A stretch of DNA of 32,408 nucleotides from Solirubrobacterales bacterium (lineage in GTDB: Bacteria; Actinomycetota; Thermoleophilia; Solirubrobacterales; Solirubrobacteraceae). This document shows, one piece after another, positions 24,665-32,266 of the stretch. Under the pieces are notes generated by a model. It was not told the origin of the DNA, made no database searches, and saw only the letters and a program-made list of their open reading frames with translations. How positions within the stretch are numbered: the stretch's first letter is position 1; each line of letters begins with the position of its first letter. Made by a program: the position numbers and the translations under genes. The stretch covers positions 1 to 32,408 of the forward strand of contig JAFASF010000100.1 in the NCBI GenBank assembly GCA_019244745.1. The letters run 5' to 3'.

Positions 24665-25621
24665 CTATCCCGCTGTCGTCCGCGCCTCGAGCATCGGCAC
24701 CCCATCGAGTCGCCGAAGCCCCGCGACCACGCGCCTGAGGAACGGCGCGATCGGACGCGCACTCGACCGGACGCCCTCCGCCAGCGCCGCCCCCGCGATC
24801 AGATCGATCGCATAGTGCTCGCCCAAGTAGACGAGCGCCACGCCGAGGAGCACCGCGTAGGTCCAGGCGAGGACGCCCGCCACCGGAGCCACCTCGCTCA
24901 GCAGGTGAGCGGCCATCAGAGACGTAGCGAAATGCAGCGAAGGCATGGCAGCGAGCGGATTCCCGCCGAGGACATCGTAAAGCGCCCCCCAGCGGTCACC
25001 CCAAAACTGCTCTCCGTATTCGAGCATCATCCGCCGCACCCGGATCGGTTCACCGTCCTCGAGGCGGCCGTGCTCGGCGGCCCACCAGGGAGGCGCGGTG
25101 GGGATCGTCCAGTAGAAAACGGCGCCGATGTCGAACACGGCGTACATTCGTGCGGCCGCGCTCGGGAAGCGATCCGGGTCGCGCAGGAGTATGTAGGCGA
25201 CGCTCGAGTGGGGCACGGCGAACCACATCCAGTGACACCAGACCAGCAACCGCTCGAAGCGGTTGACCGCACCCGGTGCCGCGAAGCTCCGTTGCATCCT
25301 GAGCGTCGGTATGACGCCAAGACCGAGGACTCGGTCGACCGCGATCGGATAGTCGACCCGCACGCGCGCCGCCAGCCGCCGCGGATCGTCGTTGGGCAGC
25401 TTGTAGGCGGCGATGTAGGCCCACATGTTCAGGGTGCAAACGGCGACGTCACGCGCCTTGCCCGGCCGCATCGCCACGCACACGGTGAGCGGGGCGGTCG
25501 CCGCAGCGCCGATCGCCACGCCGCGCGGCAGCCGCAGCTGGCGTCTCAGCACGGGCGCAGCAACCGCCGCCGCGACAAGGGCCCAGGCCGCAGCTCGGAT
25601 CCCCTTGGACGTGCGCAACAA
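24665..25621 (-). CDS. PAP2-family membrane phosphatase / inositol-phosphotransferase-like protein
   Basis: About 318 residues from TTG 25621 (or 317 from TTG 25618). It has several hydrophobic helices. The catalytic-type motifs near the end are AAMPSLHFATSLMAA and LGEHYAIDLIAGAAL, where SLH and H-x-x-x-D carry the two His and the Asp of the PAP2/AUR1 phosphatase fold (PAP2_3-like). The first part, about 100 residues before YPIAVDRVLG, is membrane-embedded. It probably hydrolyses or transfers a phospho-head group on a lipid at the membrane. The frame is open to 25819, but TATACT at 25627-25632 lies inside that extension, so a leaderless TTG start is preferred. Followed directly by the YbhN-type gene. 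Confidence 0.8.
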   Translation of the reverse strand: MLRTSKGIRAAAWALVAAAVAAPVLRRQLRLPRGVAIGAAATAPLTVCVAMRPGKARDVAVCTLNMWAYIAAYKLPNDDPRRLAARVRVDYPIAVDRVLGLGVIPTLRMQRSFAAPGAVNRFERLLVWCHWMWFAVPHSSVAYILLRDPDRFPSAAARMYAVFDIGAVFYWTIPTAPPWWAAEHGRLEDGEPIRVRRMMLEYGEQFWGDRWGALYDVLGGNPLAAMPSLHFATSLMAAHLLSEVAPVAGVLAWTYAVLLGVALVYLGEHYAIDLIAGAALAEGVRSSARPIAPFLRRVVAGLRRLDGVPMLEARTTAG

Positions 25622-25626
25622 GCGGC

Positions 25627-25632
25627 AGTATA
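25627..25632 (-). promoter_or_regulatory. -10 element (TATACT) of the leaderless PAP2 operon
   Basis: Minus-strand TATACT ends five and eight bases before two consecutive TTG codons. The -10 boxes of this promoter and the coxB promoter are 39 bases apart on opposite strands, so the upstream regions overlap. Confidence 0.5.
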
Positions 25633-25671
25633 GGAACTCCCGACCACCGCCCCTGGCTCCCGGCGGGTCAA

Positions 25672-25677
25672 TAGAAT
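25672..25677 (+). promoter_or_regulatory. -10 element (TAGAAT) of the leaderless coxB operon
   Basis: TAGAAT ends eight bases before the GTG at 25686; no ribosome site is present. It faces away from the PAP2 promoter. Confidence 0.5.
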
Positions 25678-25685
25678 CCGCCGCC

Positions 25686-26624
25686 GTGCGGGCCTTAGCG
25701 AACGAGCAGCAGATCGGGCGCCAGCGTGGCCACCGCGCCCGCGCGTTGAGCTTCGCATTGGCGCTCTCGCTCCTCGGCTCCCTCGCGTTCGCGCCGATAG
25801 CCTCGGCGAACTTCCTCACGTTGAAGCACGGAGGATCACCGAACGCAAACCAGATCTCCTCGCTCTACAACATCATCCTGTACATCGCGGCGGTGGTGTT
25901 CTTCGTGGTCGCCGGCGCACTGCTCTACTCGGTGTTCAAGTTCCGGGCCAAGAAGGGGGCGGTTGCCGCGCAGGTCCACGGGAACACGAGACTGGAGATC
26001 GGCTGGACCGTGGCCGCGGCACTGATCCTGGTGGCGCTGACCGTGATCACGTTCGTGAAGTTGCCCAAGATCATCAACCCGCCCAACTCGAGTACGGGCG
26101 GCCTGGTCCTGTCGGCGTCGGTCACCCAGCCCACTCCGCCGAACGGCAAGAAGGTCACGGTCTGCGTACAGGGTCGCCAATACATCTGGCGCTACACATA
26201 CGGCAACGACTGCCTCAACAACGCCTTTGCCTCCAAGCTTCCCTACTCGTATCAGCTTATGGTGGTGCCGGCCAACACCACGGTCATACTGGACATCCAG
26301 TCGACCGACGTCGTTCATTCGTGGTGGGTCCCGTCGCTGGGTGGCAAGGTCGATGCCGTGCCTGGCTACACGACCTACACGTGGTTCAAGGCGCCCAAGG
26401 CGAGTACGCCCCAACGTCCGGTCATCTATCACGGCCAGTGCGCACAGCTGTGCGGACGCGATCACGCCGCGATGACCGCCCAGGTCCAGGTGGTCACGCC
26501 GGCGCAGTACACGGCGTGGCTGTCGAGGCAGTCGGACCTGATCTCCAAGGCCAACGCCCAGGTGACCCAGCTGCGAGCCATCCTGACCGCGCAAGGCGTC
26601 CTCTCGTCGAACGGAAACCTCTAG
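25686..26624 (+). CDS. coxB: cytochrome c oxidase subunit II (module 1)
   Basis: 312 residues. A signal-like helix (LSFALALSLLGSLAFAPIA) comes first. Two membrane helices follow: IILYIAAVVFFVVAGALLYS, then WTVAAALILVALTVITFVKL after the conserved HGNTRLEIGWT. The periplasmic CuA domain has its His in VHSWWVPSLGGKVDAVPG and the CuA loop GQCAQLCGRDHAAM. In that loop the Glu of C-x-E-x-C is replaced by Gln. An unusual insertion near residue 150 carries two Cys (VTVCVQG and GNDCLN). CuA takes electrons from cytochrome c and passes them to subunit I. No fused cytochrome c domain. The GTG at 25686 appears leaderless. Its stop overlaps the coxA ribosome site. Confidence 0.93.
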   Translation: MRALANEQQIGRQRGHRARALSFALALSLLGSLAFAPIASANFLTLKHGGSPNANQISSLYNIILYIAAVVFFVVAGALLYSVFKFRAKKGAVAAQVHGNTRLEIGWTVAAALILVALTVITFVKLPKIINPPNSSTGGLVLSASVTQPTPPNGKKVTVCVQGRQYIWRYTYGNDCLNNAFASKLPYSYQLMVVPANTTVILDIQSTDVVHSWWVPSLGGKVDAVPGYTTYTWFKAPKASTPQRPVIYHGQCAQLCGRDHAAMTAQVQVVTPAQYTAWLSRQSDLISKANAQVTQLRAILTAQGVLSSNGNL

Positions 26625-29296: not shown

Positions 29297-29410
29297 ATGG
29301 ACCGTAGGCTCGCACGCAAGAACATCCGCTCGGGGCTGATCGCCGGCGCCCTGTGCCTGTTCATGTTCGGCATGACGTTCCTGGCGGCGGCGATCTACGT
29401 ACACCCGTGA
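29297..29410 (+). CDS. 37-residue single-helix membrane protein, likely oxidase assembly factor
   Basis: ATG 29297 to TGA 29408-29410, 15 bases after ctaB. It reads MDRRLARKNIRSGLIAGALC and ends FLAAAIYVHP: a basic N-terminus (RRLARKNIRSG), then one hydrophobic helix. The size, the R-x-x-N-x-R-x-G-L-I pattern and the place after ctaB match small cytochrome oxidase assembly proteins of other bacteria, which have a basic head and one helix. Probably inserted with the N-terminus in the cytoplasm. No close family is certain. Confidence 0.68.
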   Translation: MDRRLARKNIRSGLIAGALCLFMFGMTFLAAAIYVHP

Positions 29411-29418
29411 ACGAGCAG

Positions 29419-29645
29419 CCAGTGTTCCGTCAGGTAAGTTCGCTTGCACCGAGAGCGGTCGCTGGCGACTCCTGGCGCGGACGCAGGACCCGACGTGTAG
29501 CAGCGCTACACGAGGGTCCGAGGACAAAGCCAGGCGGCGCCAACCGGATGACTCGAGGCCGGCCCTCCGTTTTGGCGAGGCTGGATGCCGAGCGGGCCGC
29601 CCTCGAGCGTTCGAATGCAAGCGAATTTGCCTGACGGGGCACTAG
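29419..29645 (+). repeat. structured 227-bp element, copy 1 (plus orientation)
   Basis: Ends match as inverted repeats of 30 bases (29419-29448 with 29616-29645). Read as plus-strand RNA, 25 pairs are Watson-Crick, four are G-U and one is a mismatch. Inside are a short hairpin ACCG-AGAG-CGGT (29448-29459) and a long arm, 29464-29476 with 29529-29541. That arm is capped by GGACCC/GGGTCC (29486-29491, 29514-29519) and GTGTAGC/GCTACAC around loop AGC (29495-29511). A second hairpin, CTCGAGG...CCTCGAG, lies within 29540-29618. The 79-base segment 29540-29618 differs at only three positions from copy 2. It lies between the 37-residue protein and the subunit-IV-like gene. Confidence 0.8.
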
Positions 29646-29863
29646 AACGGCAGGCGCCGCCGGCGGGCGAGGAGATTCACCTCCCGGGCCCCACAATCCT
29701 TCCGCTGGCGACGGCCGTGGGGATCACCCTGATCGTGATCGGCACCACGATCAACTGGATTTTCACGATCGTCGGCGGCGTGATCACGCTGTACTGCGTG
29801 ATCCGGTGGGTGCGGGACACGCGCCGCGACGTCGACGCACTGCCCGAAGAGCACCGGCACTAG
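29615..29863 (+). CDS. two-helix membrane protein, cytochrome oxidase subunit IV-like
   Basis: 82 residues if started at ATG 29615; the mature core is GEEIHLPGPTILPLATAVG, then LIVIGTTINWIFTIVGGVI and a tail RWVRDTRRDVDALPEEH. Two hydrophobic helices with a short turn and an acidic C-terminus resemble the small subunit-IV-like proteins encoded beside actinobacterial oxidase genes. The start is uncertain: the ATG lies inside the right arm of the 227-bp element and has no ribosome site, so the first ten or so residues would come from the element. A TTG at 29627 is an alternative. Last gene of module 1. Confidence 0.62.
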   Translation: MQANLPDGALERQAPPAGEEIHLPGPTILPLATAVGITLIVIGTTINWIFTIVGGVITLYCVIRWVRDTRRDVDALPEEHRH

Positions 29864-30201
29864 CTTGCCGGCGGGGCGTCTCGCGCTCACGCCGGGGCCA
29901 CGTAGAGCTATCCGCTTTTCGCGTCGATGTGTGGTTGTTGCAGGACGAACCGGGGTTGTGTGCCGATCACAACGGGGCGAGAGCGAAACCCTGAGAAACG
30001 GGCACGTGGTCCGTCTAAGGTTGCATATGTGCACCATTGGGGCCACCACGTCCCCTTCGGAGCGGGTGTCTGCGTCAGTCGCTTGTTAGCTACCGACAAC
30101 TCCGGGGCGTCGGTCCCAGTTCGGGCAAAGCCTCTATCCGACGCCAAATGCGGACAGTCCTCCGAATGTGCGGGCCGACCCCGGGCTACGGCCTGCCGTC
30201 C
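29864..30201. other. no gene recognised
   Basis: About 340 bases between the subunit-IV-like gene and the CBS gene, which converge. No frame carries recognisable motifs. At its right edge an imperfect GC-rich hairpin AGGTGCC/GGCACCT (30204-30233) overlaps the CBS gene's last codons and may act as a terminator for it. Confidence 0.4.
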
Positions 30202-30618
30202 TCAGGTGCCGGCGCCGGCGCCGGCTGGCACCTCGCAGGAGGCACCCTCTCCGGTCCAGCAGCGAACGATGTCCCGCATCGACAAGATGCCCACCAACCC
30301 GCCCCCCTCCACGACCACGAGGTGACGGAAGCGGCCGCGGACCATCGCCGAGGCCGCGCGCTCGAGGGACCAGTCGGGGGAGGCGAACGTCAGGTTGGAG
30401 GTCAGGTGGTCGGCGACGCGCTCCGTGTCGGGATCCTCGCCGGCGCCGACCGAGAGCAGGATGTCGCGCTCGGTGATCACCCCCGGGCCTGGGGCGTCGG
30501 GATCGAGCACCACGGCAGCGCCCACGTTGCGGCGGACCATGGCCGAGGCGGCGTCGCGCAGCGAGTGCCCGGGCCCGACGGTCAGTACGACTTCTGACAT
30601 CCCCTCTCGTACCTGCAT
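30202..30618 (-). CDS. CBS-domain pair protein
   Basis: 138 residues with two CBS domains and little else: VGPGHSLRDAASAMVRRN to GPGVITERDILLSV (about 14-57), and ASPDWSLERAASAMVRGR to VGILSMRDIV (about 78-121). The G-(V/I)-(I/L)-(T/S)-x-R-D-I nucleotide-contact motif is present in both. Such Bateman modules bind AMP, ATP, SAM or similar ligands and act as sensors. The ATG at 30618 has AGGAGG four bases upstream. It lies on the opposite strand between two oxidase modules; any regulatory link to respiration is inference. Confidence 0.88.
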   Translation of the reverse strand: MQVREGMSEVVLTVGPGHSLRDAASAMVRRNVGAAVVLDPDAPGPGVITERDILLSVGAGEDPDTERVADHLTSNLTFASPDWSLERAASAMVRGRFRHLVVVEGGGLVGILSMRDIVRCWTGEGASCEVPAGAGAGT

Positions 30619-30818
30619 TGCGCCTCCTAGGATGCTTGCAACAATTGCCTCAATCATAATGGAGGCTGGCCCCACGCGCGGAGTTGCCACACTCGAGCGC
30701 TTTCATGCGCGGCGCCGGTTCCGGACGCCGGGTCCACGAGCGCCAGCGACCACGTGCCCCGGACGGGTCCGCGACCGCCAGCAGCCACTGGCGCCAGAAT
30801 CGTTCCGGGGCGAGAATG

Positions 30819-30824
30819 CATAGG
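30819..30824 (+). promoter_or_regulatory. possible -10 element (TAGGAT) of oxidase module 2
   Basis: Within GCATAGGATGGCG, about 46 bases before the ATG of the second coxB. It is divergent from the CBS gene. The weak context makes this tentative. Confidence 0.25.
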
Positions 30825-30870
30825 ATGGCGGGCGGAGTGATGCTCGAGGGCCACGGAGACGGACGCGGCC

Positions 30871-32013
30871 ATGCGTAACCGGCCGCTGCTGCAGATGCTC
30901 GCGATCGCCGTGATCGGCGTCGCGATCCTGATTCCGCTGGCGCTGATCGTTCCGTGGTTTCCGAGTCAGGGCTCGCGCCAGGCGGGCAACGTCCGGACCC
31001 TCTATGACGTTCTGCTCATCGCCTCGGTCCCGATCTTCGTGATCGTCCTGACCGTGGTTGGCTTCTCGGTGTGGAAGTTCCACATGAAGCCCGGCGAGGA
31101 GGAGAAGGACGGGCCACCGATCCACGGAAACACGCGGTTGGAAGTTGTCTGGACGGTGATGCCGGCGATCCTGATCATCTCCCTGTGCACGTACGCGTAC
31201 ACCGTGCTGCGCTCCAACGAGGCGACGAAGAAGGACGCGATGACCGTCAATGTCACCACCAGGCAGTTCGCGTTCGAGTTCTCCTACCCCAACGGCGTGG
31301 TCTCCCCGATCCTGTACCTGCCGAACGACAGGCCGGTCGTGTTCAACCTGCATTCGCTGGACGTCGTCCACAGCTTCTTCGTGCCGAACTTCTCCGTGAA
31401 ACTGGACGCGGTTCCGGGAATCACAACAACGTTGAGGATCACTCCCGACAAGATCGGCACCTATCCGGTGGAGTGCACGGAGCTGTGTGGCGCCGGCCAC
31501 TCGCTGATGCGCTCGACGGTCATAGTTCAGACACCCGCCAACTTCGCGGCGTGGCTGGGATCCCAGAAGCCGAACGGGCCTCCGCCGGTCGGAACGCCTC
31601 CGCCGAATGGCGCGGCGCCGGGAATTCCGGGCTCCGGGGCCACCGCAAGTAGCTCCGCGTCCTCGGCCACCAGCAGCACCTCGTCGAGCTCCGCGACCGG
31701 CGCGGCCGCCGGAAAGGCCCTGTTCACAGGGTCCGCGGGCTGCAGCTCGTGCCACACGCTTGCGGCCGCGGGTGCGACCGGTACCGTCGGCCCGGACCTC
31801 GACACCAGGCTGCGCACAGACTGCGCGACGGCCGCTTCGAAGGCGATTCGCGGGGCAACGCTCGAGGAGTGCATCCACACCGCGATCACCAAGCCGTACG
31901 CCTACCTTCCCCACGGGTACGCGGCCGGGATTATGCCCGCGACGTTTTCAAAGACCCTGACCCAGACCCAGATCCAGTCGCTTGTCAACTTCCTGGCGAG
32001 CATGGCAAAGTGA
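30871..32013 (+). CDS. coxB: cytochrome c oxidase subunit II with fused cytochrome c domain (caa3-type, module 2)
   Basis: 380 residues. An N-terminal helix (MLAIAVIGVAILIPLALIV) is followed by two more: LLIASVPIFVIVLTVVGFSV, then WTVMPAILIISLCTYAYTVL after HGNTRLEVVWT. The CuA domain has HSFFVPNFSVKLDAVPG and the canonical loop CTELCGAGHSLM, with the Glu that module 1 lacks. A Pro/Gly/Ser/Ala-rich linker (about 231-277) leads to a cytochrome c domain with heme motif CSSCH and an axial Met candidate in GIMPATF. Fusion lets the enzyme take electrons without a separate cytochrome c. ATG 30871; upstream GGAGACGGAC is a weak ribosome site. The next gene starts about 285 bases later, with the second structured element between. 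Confidence 0.95.
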   Translation: MRNRPLLQMLAIAVIGVAILIPLALIVPWFPSQGSRQAGNVRTLYDVLLIASVPIFVIVLTVVGFSVWKFHMKPGEEEKDGPPIHGNTRLEVVWTVMPAILIISLCTYAYTVLRSNEATKKDAMTVNVTTRQFAFEFSYPNGVVSPILYLPNDRPVVFNLHSLDVVHSFFVPNFSVKLDAVPGITTTLRITPDKIGTYPVECTELCGAGHSLMRSTVIVQTPANFAAWLGSQKPNGPPPVGTPPPNGAAPGIPGSGATASSSASSATSSTSSSSATGAAAGKALFTGSAGCSSCHTLAAAGATGTVGPDLDTRLRTDCATAASKAIRGATLEECIHTAITKPYAYLPHGYAAGIMPATFSKTLTQTQIQSLVNFLASMAK

Positions 32014-32037
32014 AGGGGCGCGTGGACATCTCTGGAG

Positions 32038-32266
32038 CTAGTGTCGTGAGTCGAGAATTGGATGGCATTCGAGCGCTCGAGGGCGGCCCGCTCGGCATCC
32101 AGCCTCGCCAAAACGAAGGGCCGCCCTCGAGTCATCCGGTTGGCGGCGGCTGCGCTGCGTCCTCGTCGCCTCGCGTAGCGCTGCTACGACTCGGCTCCTG
32201 CGTCCTTGCGCAGCGCCCGCCAGTGACCGCTCTCGGTGCCACCGAATTTTCGACCCGCGACACTAG
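32038..32266 (-). repeat. structured 229-bp element, copy 2 (inverted relative to copy 1)
   Basis: The ends begin CTAGTGTCG and finish CGACACTAG, and 30-base arms match at 25 positions. The arm sequence is unlike that of copy 1. In the element's own direction (minus strand) the long arm GCGCTGCG/CGCAGCGC replaces CCTGGC/GCCAGG of copy 1, and the cap CGTAGC/GCTACG replaces TGTAGC/GCTACA, so pairing is kept while bases change. The core hairpin CTCGAGGGCGGCCC/GGGCCGCCCTCGAG is a perfect 14-base stem here. The invariant core is 32065-32143. It lies between coxB and the next oxidase gene of module 2. Confidence 0.8.

Follow-up and report, generated by a model that had tools for sequence, protein, structure and literature searches.

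The window considered here, a 32,408-nucleotide (nt) stretch of a Solirubrobacterales bacterium (assembly GCA_019244745.1, contig JAFASF010000100.1, positions 1 to 32,408), carries two copies of a hairpin-forming element in opposite orientation, one of them just behind a cytochrome c oxidase gene (Table 1). A preliminary description of this DNA had proposed a structured RNA or a fold-selected mobile element, and this proposal stands. Judged from sequence comparison, the copies probably belong to a large family of non-autonomous elements of the IS630 type (Tc1/mariner), present in soil actinobacteria, in which a strand-specific fold is under selection. On one strand, a frame of about 164 nt forms a long hairpin that has two conserved internal loops and can take up additional hairpin modules of about 60 nt.

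Table 1. Positions of the two element copies, their parts and the adjoining genes in the window.
Feature	Position	Strand	Remarks
Element copy 1 (GTG...CAC)	29422..29642	+	left flank C-CA (29419-29421; C-TA expected), right flank TA-G (29643-29645)
Copy 1, 5' outer arm	29421..29448	+	IS630-type terminal repeat
Copy 1, 3' outer arm	29616..29643	+	
Copy 1, conserved junction loop, 5' side	29446..29455	+	GCACCGAGAG
Copy 1, conserved junction loop, 3' side	29608..29618	+	CGTTCGAATGC
Copy 1, GGAC internal loop, 5' side	29479..29489	+	
Copy 1, GGAC internal loop, 3' side	29518..29531	+	CCGAGGACAAAGCC
Copy 1, apical hairpin	29495..29511	+	GTGTAGCAGCGCTACAC
Copy 1, inserted hairpin module	29544..29607	+	about 60 nt, site C; most of the 79-base core of the preliminary description
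Element copy 2 (GTG...CAC)	32041..32263	-	flanks C-TA (32038-32040) and TA-G (32264-32266)
Copy 2, junction loop, 5' side	32230..32239	-	
Copy 2, junction loop, 3' side	32065..32075	-	
Copy 2, GGAC internal loop, 5' side	32196..32208	-	
Copy 2, GGAC internal loop, 3' side	32154..32165	-	
Copy 2, apical hairpin	32174..32188	-	
Copy 2, inserted hairpin module	32076..32139	-	about 60 nt
Cytochrome c oxidase subunit II with cytochrome c domain	30871..32013	+	its stop codon is followed by the spacer that holds copy 2
Small open reading frame, 92 aa	29585..29863	+	hydrophobic by eye; no Pfam match

As had been described, the outer arms pair within each copy (25 of 30 bases in both), and the inner stems CCTGGC/GCCAGG against GCGCTGCG/CGCAGCGC and the caps TGTAGC and CGTAGC are present in the sequence. 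The arms of the two copies do differ, but less than was implied, with 19 of 30 and 18 of 30 bases identical. Likewise, the 79-base core (29540-29618 against 32065-32143) indeed differs at only three positions, but it is not an invariant core of the family: it is mostly a separate hairpin module that finds no match in 31 of the 77 copies kept below. The predicted fold of copy 1 reached -143.6 kcal/mol against -96.1 +/- 4.8 for 200 dinucleotide shuffles (z -10), and that of copy 2 -135.4 against -101.1 +/- 4.8 for its dinucleotide shuffles (z -7.2). When the window was compared with Rfam, a tRNA alone reached the gathering score. A relaxed Rfam search of 13 loci gave two matches, both far below threshold; one of the matches, to MIR8622 on the L151 element (38.4 bits, 197 required), was taken as a long-hairpin match.

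The element had also been thought to be dispersed, and the search for further copies revealed many. With copy 1 as the query, BLAST returned 44 matches in the same genome, both window copies among them, and matches in 15 of 41 genomes, this one included. In the loci in hand, 54 elements were located by their AGTG...CACT ends and oriented by similarity to copy 1; one nested duplicate was removed, leaving 53. A relaxed search gave 91 candidates, of which 77 were kept after 14 loci had been removed by eye as mis-bounded or not true elements. The copies run from GTG to CAC, usually near C-TA and TA-G flanks. The constancy of these end letters is partly by construction, because AGTG/CACT or TG/CA ends were built into the search patterns.

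The 77 kept elements were 161-305 nt long and contained no transposase gene. Their sizes mostly followed 60-nt steps of 164, 224 and 284 nt, with zero, one and two hairpin modules, respectively. Length was nearly quantised in 67 of them (161-165 nt without a module, 221-226 nt with one and 281-285 nt with two), and ten broke the rule. The size exceptions include 245-nt copies at L065 and L077, in which GC-rich sequence occupies the expected place of the 3' side of the GGAC loop. Among 55 insertions, the module sat at site A in 27, site B in 17, site C in seven and elsewhere in four; both window copies carry it at site C. Of the module sequences, 53 were found, 50 of them distinct, and their stems held 38 G.U against eight A.C pairs in a weak alignment with 87 other mismatches. 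Since the module also occurs without the usual left half (L058, L090, L103 and L096), in L058 and L090 inside other palindromes of the CTCACGC...GCGTGAG type, it could be an independent domain that is reused or mobile. Another hairpin family, with a TGAGATCGGTGC-type arm, bears the module in L023 and L025, and in L025 a second module follows in tandem.

Covariation was examined in an alignment of 20 elements (A1) with a consensus structure of 63 pairs; it omits 11 of the 31 base elements, namely nine with other arms, one that carries an inserted module and, by oversight, L057. Its derivation from the same alignment favours this structure, which was judged against shuffled and slid controls. 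Pairing was found in 95.6% of the cells compared with 81.0% in shuffles, and the covariation score was 0.451 compared with 0.172. Both partners had changed in 38 of the 63 pairs, whereas the shuffle mean was 21.5 and none of 500 shuffles reached 38; when partners were slid by one to three columns, the number of two-sided pairs fell to 3-16. Helices 2-4, the inner stems outside the terminal repeats, had two-sided changes in 19 of 37 pairs. While the stems varied, the internal loops stayed conserved: A(C/T)CGAGAG / CTCGAA close to where the outer stem ends, and AGGACGCAG / GAGGAC surrounding a GGAC:GGAC pairing, which could hold tandem G.A pairs. The preliminary description had read the covarying arms as the mark of a conserved fold. 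Covariation holds on 20 sequences, but the outer arms by themselves prove little, because transposon ends that must fit one transposase covary too and these ends resemble those of IS630. The stronger evidence for the fold is the covariation of the inner stems together with a strand-specific imbalance between G.U and A.C pairs.

This imbalance was counted in several sets of elements. The outer 28 bases of the 53 elements held 152 G.U against 8 A.C pairs, and RNAfold gave the better energy to the oriented strand in 53 of 53, a gap that may stem partly from purine-rich loops. In A1, 119 G.U pairs in 31 columns stood against six A.C pairs in six columns; the inner stems P2-P6 alone had 66 against 2, and seven A1 sequences less than 80% identical had 41 against 2. 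In a set of 44 elements, orientation was set by the two junction motifs alone and pairing was judged by a neutral aligner. The count there was 115 G.U to 14 A.C, with more G.U in 37 elements, more A.C in one and equal numbers in six. The 12 from L350-L375 gave 35 against 6. Matching of terminal repeats alone would predict equal numbers, so that selection seems to act on the fold of one strand, as RNA or as single-stranded DNA. When 127 copies were sorted by gene context, the skew was lower overall and still high in antisense (67/5), sense (33/3) and remaining (263/30) copies. The imbalance thus holds whichever way the gene points, and the fold would serve the element, or be inherited with it, and not be made by the host gene.

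The mobility of the family looks like that of an ordinary non-autonomous IS630-type element. The preliminary description had recognised no insertion sequence family, but the ends, target and size point to an IS630-type miniature inverted-repeat transposable element (MITE). Flanks were mostly Y-T-A at the left and T-A-R at the right. CTAG stood on both sides in 24 of 101 copies, and ten of the other 77 had a perfect 3-bp duplication, nine of them TNA (2.4 expected; maximum of 2000 shuffles, eight). Near-identical copies (93.6-98.2%) had different flanks, with 2-9 of 12 bases matching per side including the shared target bases. In L006 an element separates clpP from clpX (Pfam); it sits right at the stop codon of clpP and is bordered by TCA on one side and by TTA on the other, whereas the clpP-clpX spacer had no element in the 14 loci of relatives examined. 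IS630 (PF13358) was matched in 13 of 25 genomes of the genus. Among 18 fetched IS630 loci, seven had GTG...CAC ends in C-TA / TA-G around the transposase, six had one candidate end, one had GTAG ends, and in four no end was taken. The ends were read at L332, where the transposase scored 281 bits for NF033545, and at L334, L347 and others; 11 of 20 IS630 ends matched the element arms better than any of 300 shuffles. IS630 is the most plausible mover, and this genome may since have lost it.

Other movers were tried and rejected. The Y1/RAYT transposase, present in 11 of the 41 genomes searched, had no match in the element-rich genomes G000, G003, G007, G009, G010, G022 and G023. The IS5 model NF033580 was without a match in G000, G003, G007, G022 and G023, and none of the IS5 end pairs at L288-L292 (up to three best pairs per locus) starts with GTG.

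The family is common in metagenome-assembled genomes of Solirubrobacterales. Among 46 records with an exact match to a 22-base core pattern, 44 were titled as such genomes of Solirubrobacterales or Solirubrobacteraceae. Covariance model R1 had hits in 28 of 41 genomes, 86 of 151 of the order and 18 of 198 of the phylum at E 1e-6, the genome of the window included; where a search covered more than 40 genomes, filtering was stricter and few candidates per genome were scored. Low-scoring R1 counts may include unrelated palindromes, since a long palindrome can score with the model on its wrong strand too (190.4 and 79.1 bits at G003:C239). The motif GAGGACG/A occurred in 21 of 26 fetched loci (L232-L257). 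In another 25 loci, the GGAC loop was found in four and the full junction pattern in 12, and the model strand folded better in 24, although strand choice by the model is not independent of folding. These 12 elements sit in nine genomes listed in the same phylum but outside the class, and in most of them the inner loop is unlike the GGAC loop; the element would thus be old or have moved between classes. Copy 1 and the L351 element had no match in a plasmid search, the L351 element, as the sole query, none in a phage search, and the one exact pattern tried on viral contigs was not found. In L223 (1501-1700), a shorter hairpin with GAGGAC motifs adjoins a tRNA-Val gene.

Of 127 copies, 44 had a predicted stop codon no more than 12 nt from their 3' end, and 31 had one that close to their 5' end. 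An orientation bias relative to genes is not claimed: the first count of 36 against 11 shrank with stricter reading frames and more copies to 20 against 10 (p 0.10) and 44 against 31 (p 0.17), and both orientation counts rest on heuristic sets of predicted reading frames. In the window, the first start of the 29585-29863 frame after the preceding stop is an ATG inside copy 1, from which it reads out in frame. A GTG at 29409, just upstream of copy 1, may have been the original start, in which case the element has possibly supplanted the N-terminus. A 37-aa hydrophobic frame (29297-29410, + strand) stops 10 bases ahead of copy 1, and a CBS-domain protein is encoded between both elements (30202-30690, - strand); a frame similar to it by eye lies beside coxB in L109 and L112. 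The window holds two different COX2 genes, at 25425-26624 (+) and 30871-32013 (+), of which the second has the cytochrome c domain.

The observations admit several other explanations. The elements could be ordinary MITEs, with arms that match to fit one transposase and a body that is a decaying palindrome without a selected fold. The resemblance of the outer arms to IS630 ends agrees with this, and the literature consulted describes Correia, ERIC and RUP as MITEs and reports hairpins in MITE transcripts. However, equal numbers of G.U and A.C pairs would then be expected, not 119 against 6 and 115 against 14. Nor would it account for covarying inner stems, which lie outside the terminal repeats, or for internal loops kept while stems change; we consider this improbable. 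Strand-biased mutation, in which cytosine deamination on one strand turns G-C into G.T without selection, would likewise yield an excess of G.U. However, the imbalance occurs in both orientations to flanking genes and at columns holding U.A, U.G and C.G, and deamination alone would not give 38 two-sided pair changes, which makes this very improbable. Movement through RNA by reverse transcription would suit a strand-specific fold, and of the 25 genomes of the genus, 18 had an RVT_1 match, among them the genome of the window. However, four element-bearing genomes (G007, G010, G018 and G019) had no RVT_1 match and the ends and target are like those of a DNA transposon, so that a reverse transcriptase as mover was rejected and this route is scarcely credible.

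The folded form might instead be single-stranded DNA used in transposition or replication, as with attC or REP, where G.T would be tolerated like G.U. Strand-specific folds are typical of single-stranded DNA recombination sites, and folding of this kind needs no promoter. On the other hand, the Y1 transposases known to partner IS200/IS605 and REP hairpins had no match in the seven element-rich genomes, integron integrases not having been searched for, and IS630 transposition is a double-stranded cut-and-paste process. We regard this explanation as rather unlikely. For the same two reasons, the missing Y1 partner and the movement of IS630 as duplex DNA, RNA is preferred: the folded strand may well, if with less than even confidence, act as a putative RNA transcribed at gene 3' ends. 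An IS630 transposase made elsewhere, now or formerly, would act on the GTG...CAC ends, and insertion would occur at C-TA-G and sometimes C-TNA-G sites, often at stop codons. Because the elements often abut stop codons, transcription is likely to read through into one strand or the other, and the folded strand could be transcribed in this way. A host RNA-binding protein or ribonuclease might then bind the internal loops, which would make the insertion tolerable or turn the element into a portable 3'-end RNA.

Several observations weigh against a mobile IS630-type element with a selected RNA fold. Copy 2 of the window is neutral, with two G.U and two A.C pairs, and the wobble counts share descent and are not phylogenetically independent. 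Among the 77 copies not flanked by CTAG on both sides, 2-bp duplications were rarer than in shuffles (17 against 23.7) and 4-bp duplications were absent (0 against 6.7). Nine of the 20 IS630 ends failed to beat the shuffles (two tied). A score of at least 14 was also reached by 31 of the 234 remaining TAGTG sites of these loci, a set that includes unlisted copies. PF13358 had no match in the incomplete assemblies of this genome and of G007, G008, G009 and G022, the latter four with 10 to 43 model hits each. No recurrent neighbour gene appeared, the largest cluster of flanking proteins comprising four loci and looking spurious. Finally, the RNA role is a preference in which transcript, promoter and partner protein are all putative.

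Bacterial MITEs have often been read as transposon remnants whose hairpin is a by-product of the ends. Here, the wobble skew suggests that the genus and nine genomes outside the class have retained the fold of one strand, and the purpose of MITE hairpins becomes directly testable. Counting G.U against A.C in an orientation set by motifs is a cheap and general test that separates a selected fold from mere terminal repeats. More tentatively, the family could represent a widespread actinobacterial class of transposon-borne structured RNA. The IS630-type repeats would be the vehicle and a folded RNA with protein-binding loops and plug-in 60-nt domains the cargo, selected as RNA across orders and classes despite turnover of the stem sequences.

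In the literature searched, mostly by title and abstract opening, no description of this family was found, and the papers among the matches listed for its sequence strings were all unrelated by title and abstract. The elements share a conserved fold with covariation with Rfam RNA families but stay below the gathering score. Like REP/RAYT sequences and REPINs, they are dispersed palindromes; however, REP is described as 20-40 bp, several times shorter than the elements here, and the seven element-rich genomes gave no Y1 match. Correia/NEMIS and ERIC are also short palindromic MITEs; their transcripts form hairpins that RNases can cut, and ERIC lies at the 3' end of some Yersinia genes. However, the parts of the sources consulted (PMC10969869, PMC2229807, PMC2267715) mention no G.U imbalance or 60-nt modules for them, in a comparison by description and not by sequence. 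RUP of Streptococcus pneumoniae, an IS630-Spn1 MITE of 107 bp with highly conserved sequence (PMC2229807), is likewise small and intergenic, with a TA-containing target and ends like those of the IS630-family element thought to move it. The excerpts at hand report no other signature of structure or function for RUP, whereas in the elements described here the stems diverge while the fold and loops persist, and sizes change mostly in 60-nt steps.

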